From a virus: 30,612 nucleotides of DNA. The stretch is taken from IMG/VR virus record IMGVR_UViG_3300020187_000136, positions 1-30,612 of that record, one strand, 5' to 3'. The notes under the pieces are model-generated. The model was not told the origin of the DNA. It saw only the letters and a list, made by a program, of their open reading frames with translations, and did no database searches. Positions 2,730-30,291 of the stretch are shown here, in pieces (the stretch's first letter is position 1; each line of letters starts with the position of its first letter). The translations under genes and the position numbers were made by a program.

Positions 2730-4580
2730 TTAAGTACCTGCTTGACCTACAATCATACCATCTAATTGTTGTTGGGTAGTAACGTCTCTTGATACTACAT
2801 AAGCCTTTAATGGTTTACCAAACTGTGCTTGTATAGCGTTTATAAGTAAGTTTTCACCAGACCTCCCTACTATGTTAAACGAAGGCTCAGAGCGTTCAGA
2901 TGCTGAATCACTACCACCATTTGTAGCGGTTTGTATAGGTGTCTTGGCTGCTGAAGTTTGAAATTTCTGTCTTGAAATTGTAGCTACCTGAGCTAAACCA
3001 AATGCAATGGTAGGTAACGCTTGTGATAGCCTTGCAAGAAAACCACCTTTAGCATCTTTCATAACACCTATAGCAGCAGCAGATGTGTCCATTAAAGCGT
3101 TTGCTATATTTGATGCCTTATTCATATCAAATTGTTTTTTAGCTATTTTCTCTTGCTTTACTCTTAGTTTTTCGTCATTTATAGCTATTTGATTTTGAAT
3201 TTTAACCCTTTCATCTTTTGATAGATTTTCGTTATTTAATCTATTATTTAGCTCTACATTTAAAGCGTTTGTTTTATTTTGCTCTACTGTTAACTCTCGT
3301 TTGAATTGAGCGTTCATAAAATCAGTCATACTTCCTAAAACTTCTTGTGATTTTGAGACAAACCCTTCTGCTCCCAACAACTTGTCTGTTAAAGCCATTT
3401 CAATAGCAATTTGTCTATTGTACTCAGCTATTGCAGCCTTAGTCTCATCACTTAATTCAACATCTATTAATTTATTTAAGTCTATTGGGTTTTTACCCAA
3501 TTCGACATTCATAGCTTTAGCTACTGCTTTTAATAGCTTTTTACCATTTTCAATTTGTTTCTTCTGACTTTCTGGTGTAAATAAAGTAAATGCTTTTGGT
3601 CTATCTTCGGAGTCTTCTGAATTTTTAGAGAAATATTCATCTAACTTAATTAATCTTTTTTGTGTTCTTATGTAACTATTTTCAAGAGTGTCCAATTCTT
3701 TTGCCTCATCCCTTAGTCGTGTTAATCCATTACTTGAAATTGTCCTACCCTTTTTGTCAACAATCTCTCTAAGAACACTCATTCTTGATACTTGCTTTTC
3801 TTCTAACTCTCTTAATTTAAGTAATTCAGAATAACCATCCACAAGTGCTTTAACTGAATCTTTATTTTTCTTGTCGTCCTCAGATAACTTATCGTATGCG
3901 TTCTTAAACTCACTAAAATTCCTTGTCAAAACCTTAACTGTTTCATCCAATGATAAAAAGTTGTTATTAAAAGCGTTTATAGCTTCATTATCTTTTGATG
4001 TAAATAAAACCTTTTTCAATGACGAATAAAGATTTAATAATTTATTTAAAGGAGTTATTTGTTTTTTAAGGCTTTCTGTGTTTTTGTCAGTTGCTTTTTC
4101 TGATTTTTTTTGACTACCTGCAAAAAAGTCAAGAGCAGATACAACAGCAGTAATTGCTAAAACAATACCAAGAGGTCCCATAAGAGCAGACCACATATCC
4201 TTTAACGCAAGTTTTAAACTACCTGTTGATTTTACTGCAAAACCCATTTGAGAAACTAATTGAGTAATGTTATTCGCCATACCACGAATACCATAAGGAG
4301 CATCTGAAATAACTCTACCAAGTTCCATTACAGAAGATGTAGCTGCTCCTGATGCAGTTCTTAGATTTTGATTAGATTTTGTTGCAGTATCTAATCCTTT
4401 TTTAAAATTATTAAATTTAGTTGAATTAACTGTCTTAGCGAAGTTACCAAACTCTTTTCTAAGTTCTTTTACAGGTACTTTTGTTGCTACAATTTGACCT
4501 TTAAGATTTCTTACTGTAGCTATTCCTAATTCTGCATCTACAGTAATTTTATAATTAATATTTTCAGTACTATTTGCCAT
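2730..4580 (-). CDS. Tail tape measure protein
   Basis: A 616-aa, mainly helical protein with the usual tape-measure layout. A basic N-terminal helical part is followed by the segment VISDAPYGIRGMANNITQLV near residue 90-110, typical of Bacteroidota phage tape measures. Hydrophobic stretches lie at about 125-155 (MGPLGIVLAITAVVSALDFF) and near 510-540. Long lysine- and glutamate-rich coiled coils lie between. At roughly 0.15 nm per residue the tail would be about 90 nm, a rule-of-thumb estimate. The gene overlaps the upstream 50-aa gene by 11 bases and is followed by the prohead protease, an unusual neighbour for a tape measure. Confidence 0.88.
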   Translation of the reverse strand: MANSTENINYKITVDAELGIATVRNLKGQIVATKVPVKELRKEFGNFAKTVNSTKFNNFKKGLDTATKSNQNLRTASGAATSSVMELGRVISDAPYGIRGMANNITQLVSQMGFAVKSTGSLKLALKDMWSALMGPLGIVLAITAVVSALDFFAGSQKKSEKATDKNTESLKKQITPLNKLLNLYSSLKKVLFTSKDNEAINAFNNNFLSLDETVKVLTRNFSEFKNAYDKLSEDDKKNKDSVKALVDGYSELLKLRELEEKQVSRMSVLREIVDKKGRTISSNGLTRLRDEAKELDTLENSYIRTQKRLIKLDEYFSKNSEDSEDRPKAFTLFTPESQKKQIENGKKLLKAVAKAMNVELGKNPIDLNKLIDVELSDETKAAIAEYNRQIAIEMALTDKLLGAEGFVSKSQEVLGSMTDFMNAQFKRELTVEQNKTNALNVELNNRLNNENLSKDERVKIQNQIAINDEKLRVKQEKIAKKQFDMNKASNIANALMDTSAAAIGVMKDAKGGFLARLSQALPTIAFGLAQVATISRQKFQTSAAKTPIQTATNGGSDSASERSEPSFNIVGRSGENLLINAIQAQFGKPLKAYVVSRDVTTQQQLDGMIVGQAGT

Positions 4581-8294: not shown

Positions 8295-8833
8295 TAGTTA
8301 ATTGATTTTAATTTATTAAGGCTTAACAGTATATCCTTTCTGTAACCTTCTTTTAATATTGTTTTAATTTGTTCTCTTGTTTGTTCTTGTACTGCTTTAA
8401 TAAATCCACTACCTTTGTAGCCAAATCTCTTAGAGATACCTCCTTCTTTGTTTTTAGGGTTTTCAGCATTAGATTTACCTGCTATACTTCTTGCTAAAAC
8501 AAATCCTAAAGATTTCCAACTGCTTTCATACACCTTTCTAAATTGACCTTTCTTGTTTCTAAATAAAGGTCTCATTCCTTTTGACTTAGCCCATTCAGCT
8601 AACTCATCAGCCATCTTATAACCATACTTCCCTTTATTCTTTATGCCATCAGATAAAGCATTTGCATACTGTTTTCCAAATATGTATAACTCATTGTCTT
8701 CAACCCTATATTTAAAAGACCTATCTAAGTCTCCTGAAGCAGAAAATTTATCATCTTTAGCTGCTTGTTTTAGATTCTTCTTTATTAGTTTACCAACCTC
8801 TTTTAATGCTAACTTTAGATTCTCTCCTTCCAT
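8294..8833 (-). CDS. HK97 gp10-like tail-completion protein
   Basis: A 179-aa basic protein. An N-terminal helix (LALKEVGKLIKKNLKQAA) is followed by SGDLDRSFKYRVEDNELYIFG and YANALSDGIKNKGKYG. This helix, SGxLxxS, strand and YAxxLxxG order is characteristic of the HK97 gp10 / virion morphogenesis group at the head-tail or tail-completion position. The C-terminal half is unusually long and lysine-rich. The start overlaps the stop of the 152-aa gene at 8833. The family call rests on the motif order, so it is moderate. Confidence 0.6.
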   Translation of the reverse strand: MEGENLKLALKEVGKLIKKNLKQAAKDDKFSASGDLDRSFKYRVEDNELYIFGKQYANALSDGIKNKGKYGYKMADELAEWAKSKGMRPLFRNKKGQFRKVYESSWKSLGFVLARSIAGKSNAENPKNKEGGISKRFGYKGSGFIKAVQEQTREQIKTILKEGYRKDILLSLNKLKSIN

Positions 8834-9291
8834 TAGCAGATGCTTATGCCATTAGGAATCTCTATAGCTATATCTACGCTCCAACCTGCTAATTCGTTGC
8901 TAAAACGCTCTTTAAATGGTTGTGCAGATGGTTGTGTCGTTACCTGATAATTCATTTCAAATAAATCACCTCTCATTAACTTCATTATTAAAGAGTTTAT
9001 AACTTGAAACTGAGTGTTTAATACATCGTGCAAGTTGTCATTGCCATAAAACAAGTCGAAATCAGACTTCTTAGTGTTGTAATCAACTATATCAGCACAT
9101 AATACTTTTATATTGAATGTAACAGTCCTCTCTCCATAGGAGGCACTATCTATTAATAAGTGTGATAAAGGGAACATAGTAGTCTTATCTAAGTCTACAT
9201 CTGCTAAATCTCCGTATGTAACAGTACTTACAGATGGATTAGTTAATAATTCGTCTTTTATGGTATCTAATATGTTGTAGATGTGTGTCAT
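8833..9291 (-). CDS. Tail-completion or minor tail protein
   Basis: A 152-aa protein, MTHIYNILDTIKDELLTNPS. An N-terminal helix is followed by alternating strands and helices (ERTVTFNIKVLCADIVDY), as in tail terminator or neck-type proteins. Its ATG lies within the ATGA overlap with the stop codon of the frameshifted chaperone (TGA at 9288-9290). It is therefore coupled to the frameshift product and not to the zero-frame product, which ends 64 bases upstream. It is followed by the gp10-like gene. The role is inferred from size, position and fold pattern only. Confidence 0.55.
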   Translation of the reverse strand: MTHIYNILDTIKDELLTNPSVSTVTYGDLADVDLDKTTMFPLSHLLIDSASYGERTVTFNIKVLCADIVDYNTKKSDFDLFYGNDNLHDVLNTQFQVINSLIMKLMRGDLFEMNYQVTTQPSAQPFKERFSNELAGWSVDIAIEIPNGISIC

Positions 9292-10054
9292 CTTGTTTGT
9301 TGTTTTAGTATTCTATTTTCTAACTCTGATTTATCTTTTATAAATTCCAAGTACATTAAACATTGATGTATTGGAAGTTTTGTAACTTCTCCGATTCTTC
9401 TAACATCTTCTCCAGCGAGAGTAAATATTGCTTGATAGTCTCCCCATTTTTTACCGAATCCTTGTCTTGCTTGTTCTGATTTTTCTCCTGTAACTGTTTG
9501 AGTGTATAAGCCATCGTATAGTTCCCTAATTTTGTCGCTAAACGATAAAAAAAAACCCTCGCACTAATTGCAACATCTAAAGGAGTATCTTTCATTACGT
9601 CTGCCATATAAGACGTTCCCTTGTATTCGTGTATCAGATACTTATCTTTACTCTTGAACTTTATTGGTCTGTAAAGAACTGCCATAGCCTTATGTAAATC
9701 CTTGTCAGAGAATAAATACTTTTCTAAATCAATGAACTCACCATAACTCATCTTGTCTAAGTTAGGTATCATACCAAACTCTACAACAACTCCATCAGTA
9801 CCTTCTAACTTAAATGTCTGTGAAAGTTCTGGCTTACTGTTTAAAACAGATGATAAGTGAACTAACGTTTCGTCAAACACATTTAAACCTATCTTATCAA
9901 CGTCTGATAACTTTACATCACAAAATATCTCTAACACTTTCTTGTTTAGAAACTCTGTAGCATCTTCATCTTTGTTTTTGTCATAAACATCAATGTATCT
10001 TTGCCATTGACTTAATCTAACATCTCTTAATGTTGCAGGTATCGTAAACTCCAT
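9288..10054 (-). CDS. Tail assembly chaperone, -1 frameshift fusion product
   Basis: Slippage by -1 at the T tract (7-base site at 9548-9554) joins 169 zero-frame residues to 86 residues of the other frame, for 255 aa in total. The extension is protein-like: FSDKIRELYDGLYTQTVTG, then KKWGDYQAIFTLAGEDVRRI and KLPIHQCLMYLEFIKDKSEL, a helical segment with a conserved-looking W, Y and LA pattern. It contains no stop until TGA at 9288-9290, which forms an ATGA overlap with the next gene. Without frameshifting this would be an 86-codon open frame lacking a start. A homopolymer sequencing error (nine for ten T) would also fuse the frames and is the main alternative. Confidence 0.7.
9356..10054 (-). 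CDS. Tail assembly chaperone, zero-frame product
   Basis: A 232-aa protein beginning MEFTIPATLRDVRLSQWQRY. Residues 90-170 contain IPNLDKMSYGEFIDLEKYLF and KAMAVLYRPIKF, seen in a Bacteroidota phage protein group encoded with tail genes. At codons 167-169 the gene runs through a nine-T tract. Past it, the zero frame continues for 63 mostly hydrophilic residues (KQLQEKNQNKQDKDS) and stops at 9356. A -1 shift gives a longer protein (next entry). A short form plus a frameshifted form is the gpG/gpGT layout of siphovirus tail chaperones. The gene starts the morphogenesis operon and is divergent from the plus-strand group at 10153. Confidence 0.7.
   Translation of the reverse strand: MEFTIPATLRDVRLSQWQRYIDVYDKNKDEDATEFLNKKVLEIFCDVKLSDVDKIGLNVFDETLVHLSSVLNSKPELSQTFKLEGTDGVVVEFGMIPNLDKMSYGEFIDLEKYLFSDKDLHKAMAVLYRPIKFKSKDKYLIHEYKGTSYMADVMKDTPLDVAISARVFFYRLATKLGNYTMAYTLKQLQEKNQNKQDKDSVKNGETIKQYLLSLEKMLEESEKLQNFQYINV
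9548..9554 (-). promoter_or_regulatory. Slippery site for -1 frameshifting
   Basis: On the minus strand the sequence is GGG followed by nine T and ATCG. In the zero frame the codons are GTT TTT TTT TAT, so the heptamer T TTT TTT allows both tRNAs to re-pair after a -1 slip. The frame entered reads TTA TCG TTT AGC. A run of nine T could also cause transcriptional slippage. No clear downstream pseudoknot was found by eye. Confidence 0.65.
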
Positions 10055-10938: not shown

Positions 10939-12033
10939 GTGAGCAAAGAAGTTAAAAACAAAGTTGTTTATTTACATAGAAAAAAAACAGAAGGAACTAT
11001 ATTTTACGTAGGTATGGGTGAGCAAGATAGAGCCTATACTACTCACTCAAGGAATAAGTGGTGGATAAATGTGTACAAAAAACACGATAGATTAGTAGAT
11101 GTTGTTGCTAAAGACCTTAGTATAGATGATGCTTATGAGTTGGAAGTGTTTTTAATTTCTGAAATAGGAAGAAAGGATTTAGGATTAGGTAATCTTGTTA
11201 ACCTTGATGATGGTGGAAAAGGTGCTACTGGTCATATACCTACACAAAACGCAAGGAATAAACTAAGTAAAAGAATGTCTAAGAAAGTTATAAATACAGA
11301 AACTTTAGAGGTCTTAAAATCTGGTTCTGAATTGACTAAAAAATACGGAATATTCGGAAATGTATTACAAAAAGACCATCCTAATAGTGACTGGATGAAG
11401 TTAGAGGATTATAAAAACGGAAAACATTTAACAGAGAAATGGATTAATAGATATAAAATAAAAAATAGTTATTTAAAAATTATAAACACAAATACATTAG
11501 ACATATTCTACTGTCTTAGAGAAGCCGCTAAAAGCATAGGTAAAGGAAATTATGAAAATAACCAAAGTCAGTACAATCTCTTATCTCAGAAATTAAAAGG
11601 CTCAAAGAAAAACAATTCAAACTTTATGTATTATGATGATTATGAAAAAGGGCTTCATTTAACAAAAGAATGGATTAGAAGGAAAGAAAGAAAAATAAGT
11701 AAGAGAGATACCCCTTTAAAGGAGATAGAAATATATGACTTTAAAAAGCAATTTTGGTTTAAAACAACAAGGAAGGATTTTTATGATAAATACGGTATTA
11801 AACCATCTACTTATACAGCTCTGCTACACGGAAGATTCTGTAGAAAAGAATATAAGAAATTCAATGAAACAAATAATAGATGGAGAAATATATTAAATAT
11901 TGAAACAAATAAAGAAGAGAGATTTAATCAATGGTATTTATCAGAAAAATTAGGTGTAACATCAAATAGCTTATGTAATTTATTTTTAGGTAGAACTAAA
12001 ATAATATACAAAAAATATAAGATTATTGATTAA
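10939..12033 (+). CDS. GIY-YIG homing endonuclease with repeated DNA-binding modules
   Basis: A 364-aa protein with GTG start. Residues 8-95 are a GIY-YIG nuclease domain of the phage type: VVYLHRKKTEG, IFYVGMG, an arginine in RAYTTHSRN, the catalytic glutamate region YELEVFLISEIGRKD, then NLVNLDDGGKG. The rest holds about four units resembling NUMOD1/IENR1 DNA-binding modules. The first two each start with INT(E/N)TL and end with DYxxGxHLTxxWIxR (about 115-175 and 178-248). The later two are KTTRKDFYDKYGIKPSTYTA and WYLSEKLGVTSNSLCNLFLG. Its nuclease domain aligns without gaps to the one at 29662-30291. It is free-standing, closing the plus-strand group, and no interrupted gene is visible around it. 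Confidence 0.8.
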   Translation: MSKEVKNKVVYLHRKKTEGTIFYVGMGEQDRAYTTHSRNKWWINVYKKHDRLVDVVAKDLSIDDAYELEVFLISEIGRKDLGLGNLVNLDDGGKGATGHIPTQNARNKLSKRMSKKVINTETLEVLKSGSELTKKYGIFGNVLQKDHPNSDWMKLEDYKNGKHLTEKWINRYKIKNSYLKIINTNTLDIFYCLREAAKSIGKGNYENNQSQYNLLSQKLKGSKKNNSNFMYYDDYEKGLHLTKEWIRRKERKISKRDTPLKEIEIYDFKKQFWFKTTRKDFYDKYGIKPSTYTALLHGRFCRKEYKKFNETNNRWRNILNIETNKEERFNQWYLSEKLGVTSNSLCNLFLGRTKIIYKKYKIID

Positions 12034-23634: not shown

Positions 23635-23808
23635 TTACTCTGGTTTTAATAATTCGTTTTTAACTATTTGTTTGTACTCTGTTGGGCAATCTTTATCTGT
23701 TAGTTCAAAGATGTAGGTTTCATACTCACCTACCTTAGTTTCTAATTCAAATAATCTTTTCTGTAATGCGTTAATCTGTGCATTTTTAAAATCTATTAAG
23801 TCTTTCAT
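23635..23808 (-). CDS. 57-aa coiled-coil protein
   Basis: A 57-codon frame, MKDLIDFKNAQINALQKRLF, continuing as a leucine-rich helix and then TDKDCPTEYKQIVKNELL. It is probably a small coiled coil. It lies between the 60-aa gene and the ERF gene with three-base spacing on both sides, consistent with the packed operon. Function unknown. Confidence 0.6.
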   Translation of the reverse strand: MKDLIDFKNAQINALQKRLFELETKVGEYETYIFELTDKDCPTEYKQIVKNELLKPE

Positions 23809-23811
23809 TAT

Positions 23812-23994
23812 TTATTCGTTTATGTTTACGTTTAATCCTAAGTAGTTTCTTGTGCCTCTCGCTGGTATCTTAACTTGGTAGTTAATTCTAATATCAGTTA
23901 AATTACTATCTTGTTCTAAGTGATATTCAATCTGCTTCTTTAACTTATCCCAAGCAGAGTCGTTTATCTTCGTAGTACTTTCCATTGTTCCCAA
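23812..23994 (-). CDS. 60-aa protein of unknown function
   Basis: Reads MGTMESTTKINDSAWDKLKK and ends with strand-rich GTRNYLGLNVNINE. Start at 23994 or at the second ATG (23985); the shorter form reduces the overlap with the upstream zinc microprotein from 31 to 22 bases. No known motif. It is in the same unit as ERF and SSB-like genes. Confidence 0.5.
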   Translation of the reverse strand: MGTMESTTKINDSAWDKLKKQIEYHLEQDSNLTDIRINYQVKIPARGTRNYLGLNVNINE

Positions 23995-24276: not shown

Positions 24277-24732
24277 TTAAAACAAAACAAACTCTTGATC
24301 TTTTAAGTAGTTATCTGTATCGAAGTATATCCACTCATTAGAAACATTTATTCTTTCTATACCGTATTGAATAAGACCTCTAATTAGTTTAAGCCTTTTA
24401 GCCTTATTAATACATTTAAACTTTATGGATTTACCAACTCTATGCCCACTATTAGATGGTATAGCTATCTTATCACCATAAGTCTTACTTACATATCCTC
24501 TCAATATAAAACCTGAGAGCCTTTCTTTTCTAAACACCTCATCCAATATGAATACTGGTTCACTCTCCATAAAGTATTTACCACTACCTAACTTATCAGG
24601 ACTATCAAACATACTCCATTTAAGTACTGCTAAACCTTCACAATCCATTTCCTCTGTATAGGTATCTGTATATTCTACCTTGTGTAAAGAGAAACTTTCC
24701 TTCTTGCGTTTATGTACCTTTCTCAAAGACAT
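24277..24732 (-). CDS. M15-peptidase-like protein with broken zinc site
   Basis: A 151-aa protein. Residues 40-55 (SMFDSPDKLGSGKYFM) and 74-80 (GFILRGY) fit M15-type peptidases. Residues 95-140 align without gaps to residues 52-97 of the endolysin at 25783-26109. His97 matches zinc ligand His54, but the ligand Asp61 is replaced by Lys104 and His93 by Tyr136; Asp138 and Asp140 are kept. The enzyme should therefore be inactive as a zinc peptidase. It has its own near-consensus promoter and terminator and belongs to the replication side, not the lysis group. It may bind peptidoglycan or a D-Ala-like ligand, regulate the endolysin, or have a new role. Confidence 0.65.
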   Translation of the reverse strand: MSLRKVHKRKKESFSLHKVEYTDTYTEEMDCEGLAVLKWSMFDSPDKLGSGKYFMESEPVFILDEVFRKERLSGFILRGYVSKTYGDKIAIPSNSGHRVGKSIKFKCINKAKRLKLIRGLIQYGIERINVSNEWIYFDTDNYLKDQEFVLF

Positions 24733-27134: not shown

Positions 27135-28367
27135 TTAGTTGCTTGTTAATGCTATTAGTTCTTGGTCTGTTAATGCTGTGTTGTAAAGTTTTACGTCTTT
27201 TACGTTTCCTAAAAATGGAGATGTAGAACCATTACTATCTGTAAAAGTAATAGTGTTTAAAGTATTGTTTGCAAAAGTATCAGAATTTGTATTCGTTAAT
27301 ATTTTTACCCCATTTGAAAATATATCGAAACTTGTAGAATTATATTTTACTGCTATTTTTGTTAATTCTGATTTGTTTATTAAATTTGTAGATGAAGTTA
27401 TTACACCAACGTTATTTACATTTTTTCTAAAAAAAACAGTTCCTGCATCTGAATAATAATATATTCTTATAGAATTTGAAGAACTACCATCACATAAAGA
27501 AATGTATCTATTTACATTATCATTTTCAAAACTTTTAATCTCTGCATACAATACACCCTCTGTTGAATTTATCACTTGCTCATTACCTCCGTTATCACAA
27601 CTATCAGCCAACCTCGTTACTACACCACCTTGTGTTGGTATGTACGAAGTAGCGTAGCTTCCGACTTCTTGTTGTAAACCCCATACATACAGTCCACTTG
27701 AACCATCTCCTTGATAAATATCTACATCGTCTTTTAATATAGCAACACGAGTTTGAACAAAAGATGAAACTGTATAACTAAAATATATATGATACCAACC
27801 ATTTCCTATAAAATGCACACCACCTGTTGCACTTTGTAATAGTGTAAATGTACCATCAGTTAAATTTACTTTTATGCCATTTCCACCTACTCCTTCACTA
27901 AATTCTAATTCATCTCTTTCCCCTGCTTTAGCAAAACAAGATAAACTTACACTACCTGAAGTTAAACCAAAATTATTGTTAAAAAATCTGTGTTTACTGT
28001 TTGAAGTATTTTCAACCAACTTATCTGCAGTTTGCAACCCATCAGGCGAAACAATACTATTATTAGTTATTGAAATATTATCTTTTATCCAAAAAGAATT
28101 TGATATATCTTCACTATATGTAAATAAATTAGTCCTCTGTGGCTCAAGTTTTAAAGCACCTTGTGTATTACCTAAAAAATCTATTCTTGGTTGTCCACTA
28201 CCAACTGTTTCAATTAAACCATCTTTGTTTACAACAGTAGCACTTGATGCTCTTGTAAAGTCAAAAGGCAAAGGTTTAAAGTTTCCATTTTCTGAATTGT
28301 ACCCAAGCAAAGAATCTTTCTTCGTTGCCCAATTACCATTTGTTCCTAAATTTAAAGTATTTGCCAT
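27135..28367 (-). CDS. Tail fibre, LamG-like, copy B
   Basis: A 410-aa protein. The N-terminal module contains FTRASSATVVNKDGLIETVG and LEPQRTNLFTYSEDISNSFW, typical of phage fibre heads. The middle is a carbohydrate-binding-like sandwich (GSVSLSCFAKAGERDELEFS). The C-terminal part (LYAEIKSFENDNVNRYISLC to LGNVKDVKLYNTALTDQELI) is a LamG/concanavalin-like domain. It would bind host surface glycans. The neighbour at 28370-29662 has the same domain order, so the two are tandem paralogues separated by two bases. Confidence 0.75.
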   Translation of the reverse strand: MANTLNLGTNGNWATKKDSLLGYNSENGNFKPLPFDFTRASSATVVNKDGLIETVGSGQPRIDFLGNTQGALKLEPQRTNLFTYSEDISNSFWIKDNISITNNSIVSPDGLQTADKLVENTSNSKHRFFNNNFGLTSGSVSLSCFAKAGERDELEFSEGVGGNGIKVNLTDGTFTLLQSATGGVHFIGNGWYHIYFSYTVSSFVQTRVAILKDDVDIYQGDGSSGLYVWGLQQEVGSYATSYIPTQGGVVTRLADSCDNGGNEQVINSTEGVLYAEIKSFENDNVNRYISLCDGSSSNSIRIYYYSDAGTVFFRKNVNNVGVITSSTNLINKSELTKIAVKYNSTSFDIFSNGVKILTNTNSDTFANNTLNTITFTDSNGSTSPFLGNVKDVKLYNTALTDQELIALTSN

Positions 28368-28369
28368 AT

Positions 28370-29662
28370 CTATTCTATTATATATTGTTGTCCATTAGCC
28401 ATATCTGAAAAAGATACCCAAGACGTTAGTGTTTCTAATTCGCTATCTGTTAATGCTGAATCGTAGTATTGTACTTGTTTAGTGTTTCCGTACCAATTTC
28501 CACTTCCAGTTCCATTATCAAATGAAAGTTCATTTAAACCAGACATTAAATTAAATGTGTTAGAGTTTTGTTTTACCTTTATGCCATTTACCCAAATTTC
28601 ATTTCTTCCAGAACTATAAACTAATGCTATTTTAAATGGTATAGTAATATCTTGAAAGAAATAATCTAAACCAAATACCGCACCTTGACCACCAGCACCC
28701 AATAAATAAGTAATTTTATTTAAAGTATCTGTTGTATAAAAAGTTACAAAATTATTTGAAGAACCATCTGATATACTAATATTTCTAAATACATTTTCAT
28801 CTTTTGGAATATTTCCCTCCACCATCAAAACACCCTCTGAATCATTAAACGTAGCTGCATCTCCAGAATTATTAGCAGTTTCTGCTGAACGAGTGGTAGC
28901 TGAACCGTTAGATTTGATATAACTTGTACTATGAGAACCTTGCTCAAGCATAGCACCCCAAATATATAAGAAAGTGTTTAGTCCTGTATCTACATCTCCA
29001 TCTGCACTTGCTAAAACATATTGCGCTCTTGGAGTAGTTACACCACTTAAAGAATTTACAGTTATACTTACTCTAAACCAACCATTACCAAAATACTCAA
29101 TATTTGCATCTTGTGGCGAGTTTATGGTACTTGTTAAAACCCCATTATTTATATCAAAATAAGCAACCCTTGTAACCCCCGTTTTATCTCTTAAATTTAT
29201 AGAAATAAAGTTTAAATCTCCTTTCTTAACAAAAATAGATAGTGTATAAACAGTATTATCAGCTAACGTTGGTAAAACTTCTATTCTTGAATTCAAGCCA
29301 TCATTACTACTTATAAATTTAGAAGCATCTATCGAACCATTAGGAGAAATTGCATTGTCAGATGTTATACTTGATAAATTCTTTGTCCAAACACTTTGAC
29401 TAAAATCTTCTGAATACGTTATTAAATTTGTTGCACTATTCTCTAACAAATGACTTGGACATCCAACAACCTTACCATCAATTAAAGGATAGTTTAATCT
29501 TGATACTCCGTTTCCAACTGTTTCAATCAGTCCTTGTGAGTTTATTCTTGTTGCTGAACCACTACGAGTAAAGTCAAAATCTCCTACACCACTTGATGGT
29601 AGTACAGAATAAAATTTATCGCCTTGAGCGGATGGTATGAGACATAATTTTGGTTTTGCCAT
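28370..29662 (-). CDS. Tail fibre, LamG-like, copy A
   Basis: A 430-aa protein with the same order as copy B: FTRSGSATRINSQGLIETVG, then NLITYSEDFSQSVWTKN, a sandwich domain (YTLSIFVKKGDLNFISINL), and a LamG-like end (LMVEGNIPKDENVFRNISIS to NTKQVQYYDSALTDSELETL). It starts with the last base of the GIY-YIG gene's stop (29662). The two copies differ much in the middle and end parts, consistent with diversified receptor binding. It is probably a trimeric fibre, although no coiled-coil stalk is seen. Confidence 0.75.
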   Translation of the reverse strand: MAKPKLCLIPSAQGDKFYSVLPSSGVGDFDFTRSGSATRINSQGLIETVGNGVSRLNYPLIDGKVVGCPSHLLENSATNLITYSEDFSQSVWTKNLSSITSDNAISPNGSIDASKFISSNDGLNSRIEVLPTLADNTVYTLSIFVKKGDLNFISINLRDKTGVTRVAYFDINNGVLTSTINSPQDANIEYFGNGWFRVSITVNSLSGVTTPRAQYVLASADGDVDTGLNTFLYIWGAMLEQGSHSTSYIKSNGSATTRSAETANNSGDAATFNDSEGVLMVEGNIPKDENVFRNISISDGSSNNFVTFYTTDTLNKITYLLGAGGQGAVFGLDYFFQDITIPFKIALVYSSGRNEIWVNGIKVKQNSNTFNLMSGLNELSFDNGTGSGNWYGNTKQVQYYDSALTDSELETLTSWVSFSDMANGQQYIIE

Positions 29663-30291
29663 TATTTTTTAAATTTTAAATTAGTTTTATTTTTTCTACT
29701 TCCATTAAGCATAGATGACAAAGTACTATAATTAATATTCGTAAATTCAGCAGCTTCTTTAATAGTTTCAAACGTTTTATTTGTTTTTGTGTTATAAACC
29801 ATTTTAGCAGATGAACTTTTACCTCCTAAATTCGCTTTTCTTATTTTTTCTCTTGTTTCTTCCGTTATTTTAACACCTTTTCTTGGAGATGTAACACCCT
29901 CTCTAATTTTACTTAATTTTGCTTTCTGCTCTTCACTCATTGGTAAACCTTTATTCCAAGCGGTTCTTCCCATTGCAGATTTAGACATTTTTTTCTTTGT
30001 CAAATCACTAACTTGTAGATTACCTTTTCCACCATTATTGAGATTAACTAAATTACCATTACCTAAATCTTTTCTACCAAGTTCACAAATCACAAACTCC
30101 TCTAACTCTAAAGCATCTTCAATACTCAATTCTTTTGACAAAACATCTACATAATATCCATATTTATTAACAGTATTATGCCAATAATCATTTCTACTTT
30201 TACTTGTATATGGTCTTTTTTCAGTACCTATACCTACATAAAAAATACTTCCATCGGTTTGCTTTCTGTGAGCATAAAGTACTTTTGCCAT
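29662..30291 (-). CDS. GIY-YIG homing endonuclease with NUMOD modules
   Basis: A 209-aa protein. Residues 4-90 are the nuclease domain (VLYAHRKQTDG, IFYVGIG, the arginine in RPYTSKSRN, the glutamate in LELEEFVICELGRKD). Then NUMOD3-like motifs (RTAWNKGLPMSEEQKAKLSK and KGVKITEETREKIRKANLGG) and an IENR1/NUMOD1-type end (ETIKEAAEFTNINYSTLSSM). It matches the nuclease domain of the gene at 10939-12033 over about 88 gap-free residues. It is inserted between the 60-aa gene and the fibre genes; such enzymes often sit next to fibre genes and can move them. Confidence 0.85.
   Translation of the reverse strand: MAKVLYAHRKQTDGSIFYVGIGTEKRPYTSKSRNDYWHNTVNKYGYYVDVLSKELSIEDALELEEFVICELGRKDLGNGNLVNLNNGGKGNLQVSDLTKKKMSKSAMGRTAWNKGLPMSEEQKAKLSKIREGVTSPRKGVKITEETREKIRKANLGGKSSSAKMVYNTKTNKTFETIKEAAEFTNINYSTLSSMLNGSRKNKTNLKFKK

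Follow-up and report, generated by a model that had tools for sequence, protein, structure and literature searches.

The window analysed here is the whole of IMG/VR record IMGVR_UViG_3300020187_000136, a stretch of 30,612 bases that is probably a fragment. On its minus strand lies a gene, G, with a run of nine T (T9) past which both the zero frame and the -1 frame stay open over a long distance. The layout, its conservation, the selection on both frames and the strict restriction of the run to nine or ten T are evident from comparison with related phages, and a programmed switch of some kind at the tract, leading into the -1 frame, is almost certain. The features on which the analysis rests are, on the window:

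2730-4580, minus strand: gene for a probable tape-measure protein of 616 aa, with a C-terminal match to gp50 of Nonlabens phage P12024L
8294-8833, minus strand: tail completion or Neck1-like gene, 179 aa, matching phrog_5 (E 3e-5)
8833-9291, minus strand: next gene, 152 aa, phrog_30964 of unknown function, its start forming an ATGA overlap with the -1-frame stop
9288-9548, minus strand: -1-frame extension T, 86 codons and a TGA, accessible only via a frame switch
9356-9546, minus strand: dual-coded overlap with both frames open, assessed by diversity at codon position 3
9547-9555, minus strand (A9 on the plus strand): T9 tract, the putative frame-switch site, read in frame as GTT TTT TTT TAT
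9356-10054, minus strand: zero-frame ORF G, 232 aa, about 165 aa N-terminal to the tract and then a 63-aa tail

Past the tract, the zero frame is open for 63 codons, counted from the TAT up to but not including the stop. The -1 frame, which begins TTA TCG, is open for 86. The first ATG in the -1 frame of the window does not occur before codon 64, and the terminal TGA (9290-9288) overlaps the ATG of the next gene (9291-9289). The T9 contains T TTT TTT, an in-frame -1 slippery heptamer that is also in phase in the relatives checked. An earlier note, made from the window alone, had the position of the tract, the codon counts, the phase of the heptamer and the ATGA overlap right and had omitted the strand. 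Four genes lie between this gene and the probable tape-measure gene, which is downstream on the same strand; gp50 of P12024L itself matches a tape-measure PHROG with an E-value of 6e-12. Judged from this gene order, the gene belongs to the tail module and precedes the tape-measure gene without adjoining it.

Elsewhere in the window, two neighbouring genes at 27135-28367 (410 aa) and 28370-29662 (430 aa) both match the tail-protein PHROG 5939, which suggests a tandem duplication. A homing-endonuclease-like gene (29662-30291, minus strand, phrog_314) shares phrog_15526 with a gene at 10939-12033 on the plus strand, in the plus-strand stretch adjoining the chaperone gene.

Had the reads carried ten T instead of nine, as the earlier note considered, the gene would simply be continuous. 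Because the same T9 is present in four further contigs that are 99.0-99.9% identical to the window, a base-call error is in practice excluded. When the -1 peptide was held fixed and synonymous codons were randomised, a 63-codon open zero frame arose in 0-0.6% of the simulations per sequence; since so long a frame is rare in simulations, yet is kept in relatives, the two-frame layout is on this evidence not due to chance. Among 37 close loci, GGGTTTTTTTTTATCGTTTAG is nearly invariant at the tract and is followed by 61-62 more zero-frame codons and 84-86 more -1 codons, one locus ending at a contig edge.

Searches of viral contigs yielded at least 600 matches for the G part and at least 600 for the T part. 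The family consists mostly of uncultured phages of flavobacteria and their relatives; its members include the Nonlabens phages P12024S and P12024L and loci in GTDB genomes, among them the isolate Galbibacter pacificus CAA-3. Proviruses were few when 395 genomes from across the phylum and 397 from across the family were searched with a profile. The two-frame layout was present in every relative checked. The search for this layout in relatives, which the earlier note had named as a check, found T in the -1 frame relative to G, with T9 or T10, in 387 of 389 scored loci (132 clusters), a set gathered in part with T9/T10 patterns, so that its run lengths are not an unbiased sample. Such conservation lends strong support to programmed access to the -1 frame at the tract.

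Run lengths were counted mainly with a locator based on homology only, because an earlier pattern finder had demanded at least seven T. In 64 lineages sampled in this way (80% nucleotide clusters, the counts of which are not fully independent), the run was T9 in 55 and T10 in 9, and runs of 7, 8 or more than 10 T were found in none of the 64, although seven T would suffice for the heptamer. About 30 loci escaped the locator (most of these were inspected by eye), and its lone T5 call (L136) was placed at a wrong site, the true site being GTT TTT TTT TGG, a T9. The tract occurs in three codon registers, and nine T are retained in spite of the shifted register in loci such as L099 (ATG TTT TTT TTT CTG) and L236 (GGT TTT TTT TTG). 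The amino acid that follows the two phenylalanines is variable in the homology-sampled lineages (Y, W, C, L, F or S), and the first base of its codon is always T.

As judged from codon-position-3 diversity among 22 close, non-redundant relatives, selection acts on both frames throughout the overlap. In the -1 frame this diversity is 0.22 in the overlap versus 0.35 past the zero-frame stop (P 0.014), and in the zero frame it is 0.48 upstream of the tract (versus 0.22 in the overlap, P 3e-12). At least 50 zero-frame codons past the tract are kept in 84% of the family, versus 3.6% expected. Not every member has the long tail: the zero frame stops 16-25 codons past the tract in P12024S/L and near relatives. 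We also considered a conserved +1-frame stop just past the tract (TTTAG), which lies within four codons in 89% of cases, against an expectation of 68% given the -1 peptide alone, and set it aside as too weak.

We infer that two proteins are made from one start codon. Unslipped expression would give the 232-aa G, while a minority of expression would enter the -1 frame at the T9 and give a G-T fusion of about 254 aa (...V-F-F-L-S-F-S-D-K...). The RNA polymerase would slip on the T9 and add one U, normal translation of the U10 mRNA would yield GT, and the length of the run, nine or ten, would set the G:GT ratio. Many copies of G and few of GT would then load the tape measure and recruit tail tube subunits, as lambda G and GT do. 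For this account as a whole, polymerase step included, the chance is slightly better than even. The wider proposition, that a large phage family sets the G:GT ratio of its tail chaperone not by ribosomal frameshifting but by transcriptional slippage on a T9-T10 run of tuned length, with a dual-coded C-terminus of 55-80 codons in most lineages, we regard as evenly balanced between true and false.

The strongest competing explanation is programmed -1 frameshifting by the ribosome, in which two tRNA-Phe would slip back by one base on U UUU UUU and produce the same G-T fusion; it is a serious possibility, if somewhat short of an even chance. All tail-chaperone precedents known to us are ribosomal. 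The in-phase heptamer is present in all relatives checked, and any T9 holds an in-phase U UUU UUU. Ribosomal frameshifting is the known tail-chaperone mechanism (PMC5009743) and was measured at 7% in one chaperone cluster (PMC3711429), and in E. coli shifts occur readily on U_UUU_UUU (PMC4066793).

The composition of the tract bears on this point. Replacing T by C as the final base of the second TTT alters neither peptide as long as the -1 frame reads TTA or TTG there, and the heptamer that this leaves, U_UUU_UUC, belongs, as does U_UUU_UUU, to the high-efficiency class for E. coli ribosomes (PMC4066793), so that a ribosomal mechanism needs no T at that base. A TTC shift codon was nevertheless found in none of the contigs of the whole IMG/VR viral collection searched with one flanking pattern, versus at least 120 contigs with an intact T9. 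With Phe/Leu codon bias and both frames allowed for, the expected number of TTC cases was about 3.2 for the homology sample (P 0.035); for 104 TAY clusters it was 7.5 (P 4e-4, with clusters treated as independent). Where the next codon encodes phenylalanine, it is TTC in four of four lineages and TTT in none (P 0.0015); because it is always TTC, the run looks capped at ten T.

We also counted A and T runs in 498 other ORFs (359 kb) of the relatives, which are AT-rich phages. Runs of at least nine A were observed 5 times versus 53 expected, with depletion in all three phases and a step between eight and nine; T8 was observed 5 times versus 21 expected, and T runs of at least nine outside the chaperone gene once versus about 12 expected. 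That single T9 is in a 172-aa tail-completion-like ORF (L226, MRLDDTNKILNKFAK...), at a PSFFFTKPF motif. Many bacteria avoid A/T runs from nine upward, which has been ascribed to transcriptional slippage (Baranov et al., PMC1088944). The avoidance of long runs may instead stem from replication slippage.

Pseudoknot-free RNA structure downstream of the tract showed no excess across the 64 lineages (mean z -0.1 to -0.3). Shifting without stimulators occurs in some tailed phages (PMC5009743), so the absence of structure is not decisive. Flavobacterial ribosomes lack Shine-Dalgarno pairing (PMC9976891), which removes one usual stimulator of a ribosomal shift. The minimum of nine T is in part a coding consequence, since V, L or I before the two phenylalanines and L or F in the -1 frame already force nine T in the common register. 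Taken together, the strict run with neither seven nor eight T, the lack of TTC, the cap at ten, the lack of structure and the avoidance of runs elsewhere favour transcriptional slippage in our reading. The earlier note had put a ribosomal shift at T TTT TTT first: the heptamer does fit, but the absence of TTC, of runs of seven or eight T and of structure means that this is not the better-supported mechanism. Its alternative, transcriptional slippage, appears mildly preferable on run length, TTC absence and run avoidance, a preference that is not decisive.

Variation of run length at the DNA level, by phase variation or assembly error, with T10 genomes making only GT and T9 genomes only G, is very improbable. 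Two IMG/VR contigs, L409 (478-1242) and L443 (1746-2489), do, as assembled, have a T10 and a continuous G-T ORF of 254 and 247 aa, respectively, but they are only 2 of the 389 loci, their closest sampled T9 relatives are 85-93% identical, and within the species of the window all contigs carry T9. Two separately initiated genes, as in the deposited annotation of P12024S/L (gp40/gp41 and homologues), are hardly credible, since the -1 frame lacks an ATG between the upstream stop and 25 codons past the tract in 64 of 64 lineages and conservation of the -1 peptide begins at the tract itself. The annotated downstream products are most likely the tail end of the frame-shifted extension, not independent genes:

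24473-24640 of JQ823123 (9528-9695 of locus L065): gp41 of P12024L
23663-23830 of JQ823122: gp39 of P12024S

G matches phrog_32199, a family of unknown function, with an E-value of 9e-21. For neither G nor T did Pfam, which had no match, or PHROGs supply a function. A G family member modelled with AF2 (pLDDT 82) matches unnamed proteins of uncultured phages; its best annotated match in BFVD is the tail assembly chaperone ctCpR1, a weak one (E 0.086, probability 0.92). The T extension was modelled as helical (pLDDT 78). Foldseek against the PDB, and VIA, returned helical-bundle noise only. Flavobacterium phage 6H has a remote homologue of G (E 8e-6 by hhalign), located upstream of a clear tape-measure gene in the same gene block. 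Because of the G/GT layout, the position in the tail module, the 6H homologue and the weak fold match, the product is plausibly best read as a tail assembly chaperone of the lambda G/GT type. The label that the earlier note had given to the gene is thus plausible, although no database family names it so.

Recoding of the tail chaperone is the textbook example of a frameshift conserved among tailed phages, and its mechanism is taken to be ribosomal. Xu, Hendrix and Duda reportedly described it in 2004 as conserved among dsDNA phages. A tail chaperone in two frames is therefore of a kind already known; new here are the invariant homopolymer site, the long stretch coding in both frames and the probable slippage mechanism. 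In the open-access literature searched, we came across no description of transcriptional slippage in any phage tail chaperone and none of a frame switch in these phages. The family is deep (at least 600 matches), its homopolymer site lies at the threshold for bacterial transcriptional slippage, and the ribosomes of its hosts do without Shine-Dalgarno pairing.

The arrangement resembles lambda G/GT (reviewed in PMC5009743) in that one start gives two proteins, the second with a -1 C-terminal extension, and in that the gene lies in the tail module ahead of the tape measure. It differs from lambda in that the site is an invariant T9/T10 homopolymer, that a long conserved zero-frame tail (63 codons) overlaps the extension, that four genes separate the gene from the tape measure and that tandem-tRNA slippage is here a candidate mechanism only. 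With Thermus dnaX (A9) and Shigella mxiE and spa13 (PMC1088944, PMC5009743) it shares a homopolymer slippage site and two products per gene, whereas here the gene is one of phage morphogenesis, the run is poly-T and slippage is deduced from sequence only.

A chaperone-like gene of Duneviridae phages (Flavobacterium phages 6H, 2A and laban6-1; Cellulophaga phage Ingeline) is remotely homologous to the G part (E 8e-6 and 6.5e-7 by hhalign), but 2A, laban6-1 and Ingeline have one continuous ORF of 293-301 aa and no T9. A comparison gave no support for a T-like C-terminus in the single-ORF homologue. The chaperone-like ORF of 6H (KC959568 10352-10927, L268) stops at 191 aa, and 6H and 2A diverge sharply just before this stop.

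Among the closest known systems are also the Nonlabens phages P12024S and P12024L (Inhavirus), where gp38/gp39 and gp40/gp41, respectively, correspond to a homologous gene. Its tract, at the matching position, reads CTT TTT TTT TAT and is followed by a T extension. These two phages differ in a zero-frame tail of only 25 codons from the TAT and in their annotation as two hypothetical proteins, the frame switch having gone unnoticed; recognising the switch corrects such annotations, in which the T extension is otherwise missed or labelled as a separate hypothetical gene. Since these phages and the Galbibacter pacificus locus are cultured systems, the question of polymerase or ribosome is answerable.
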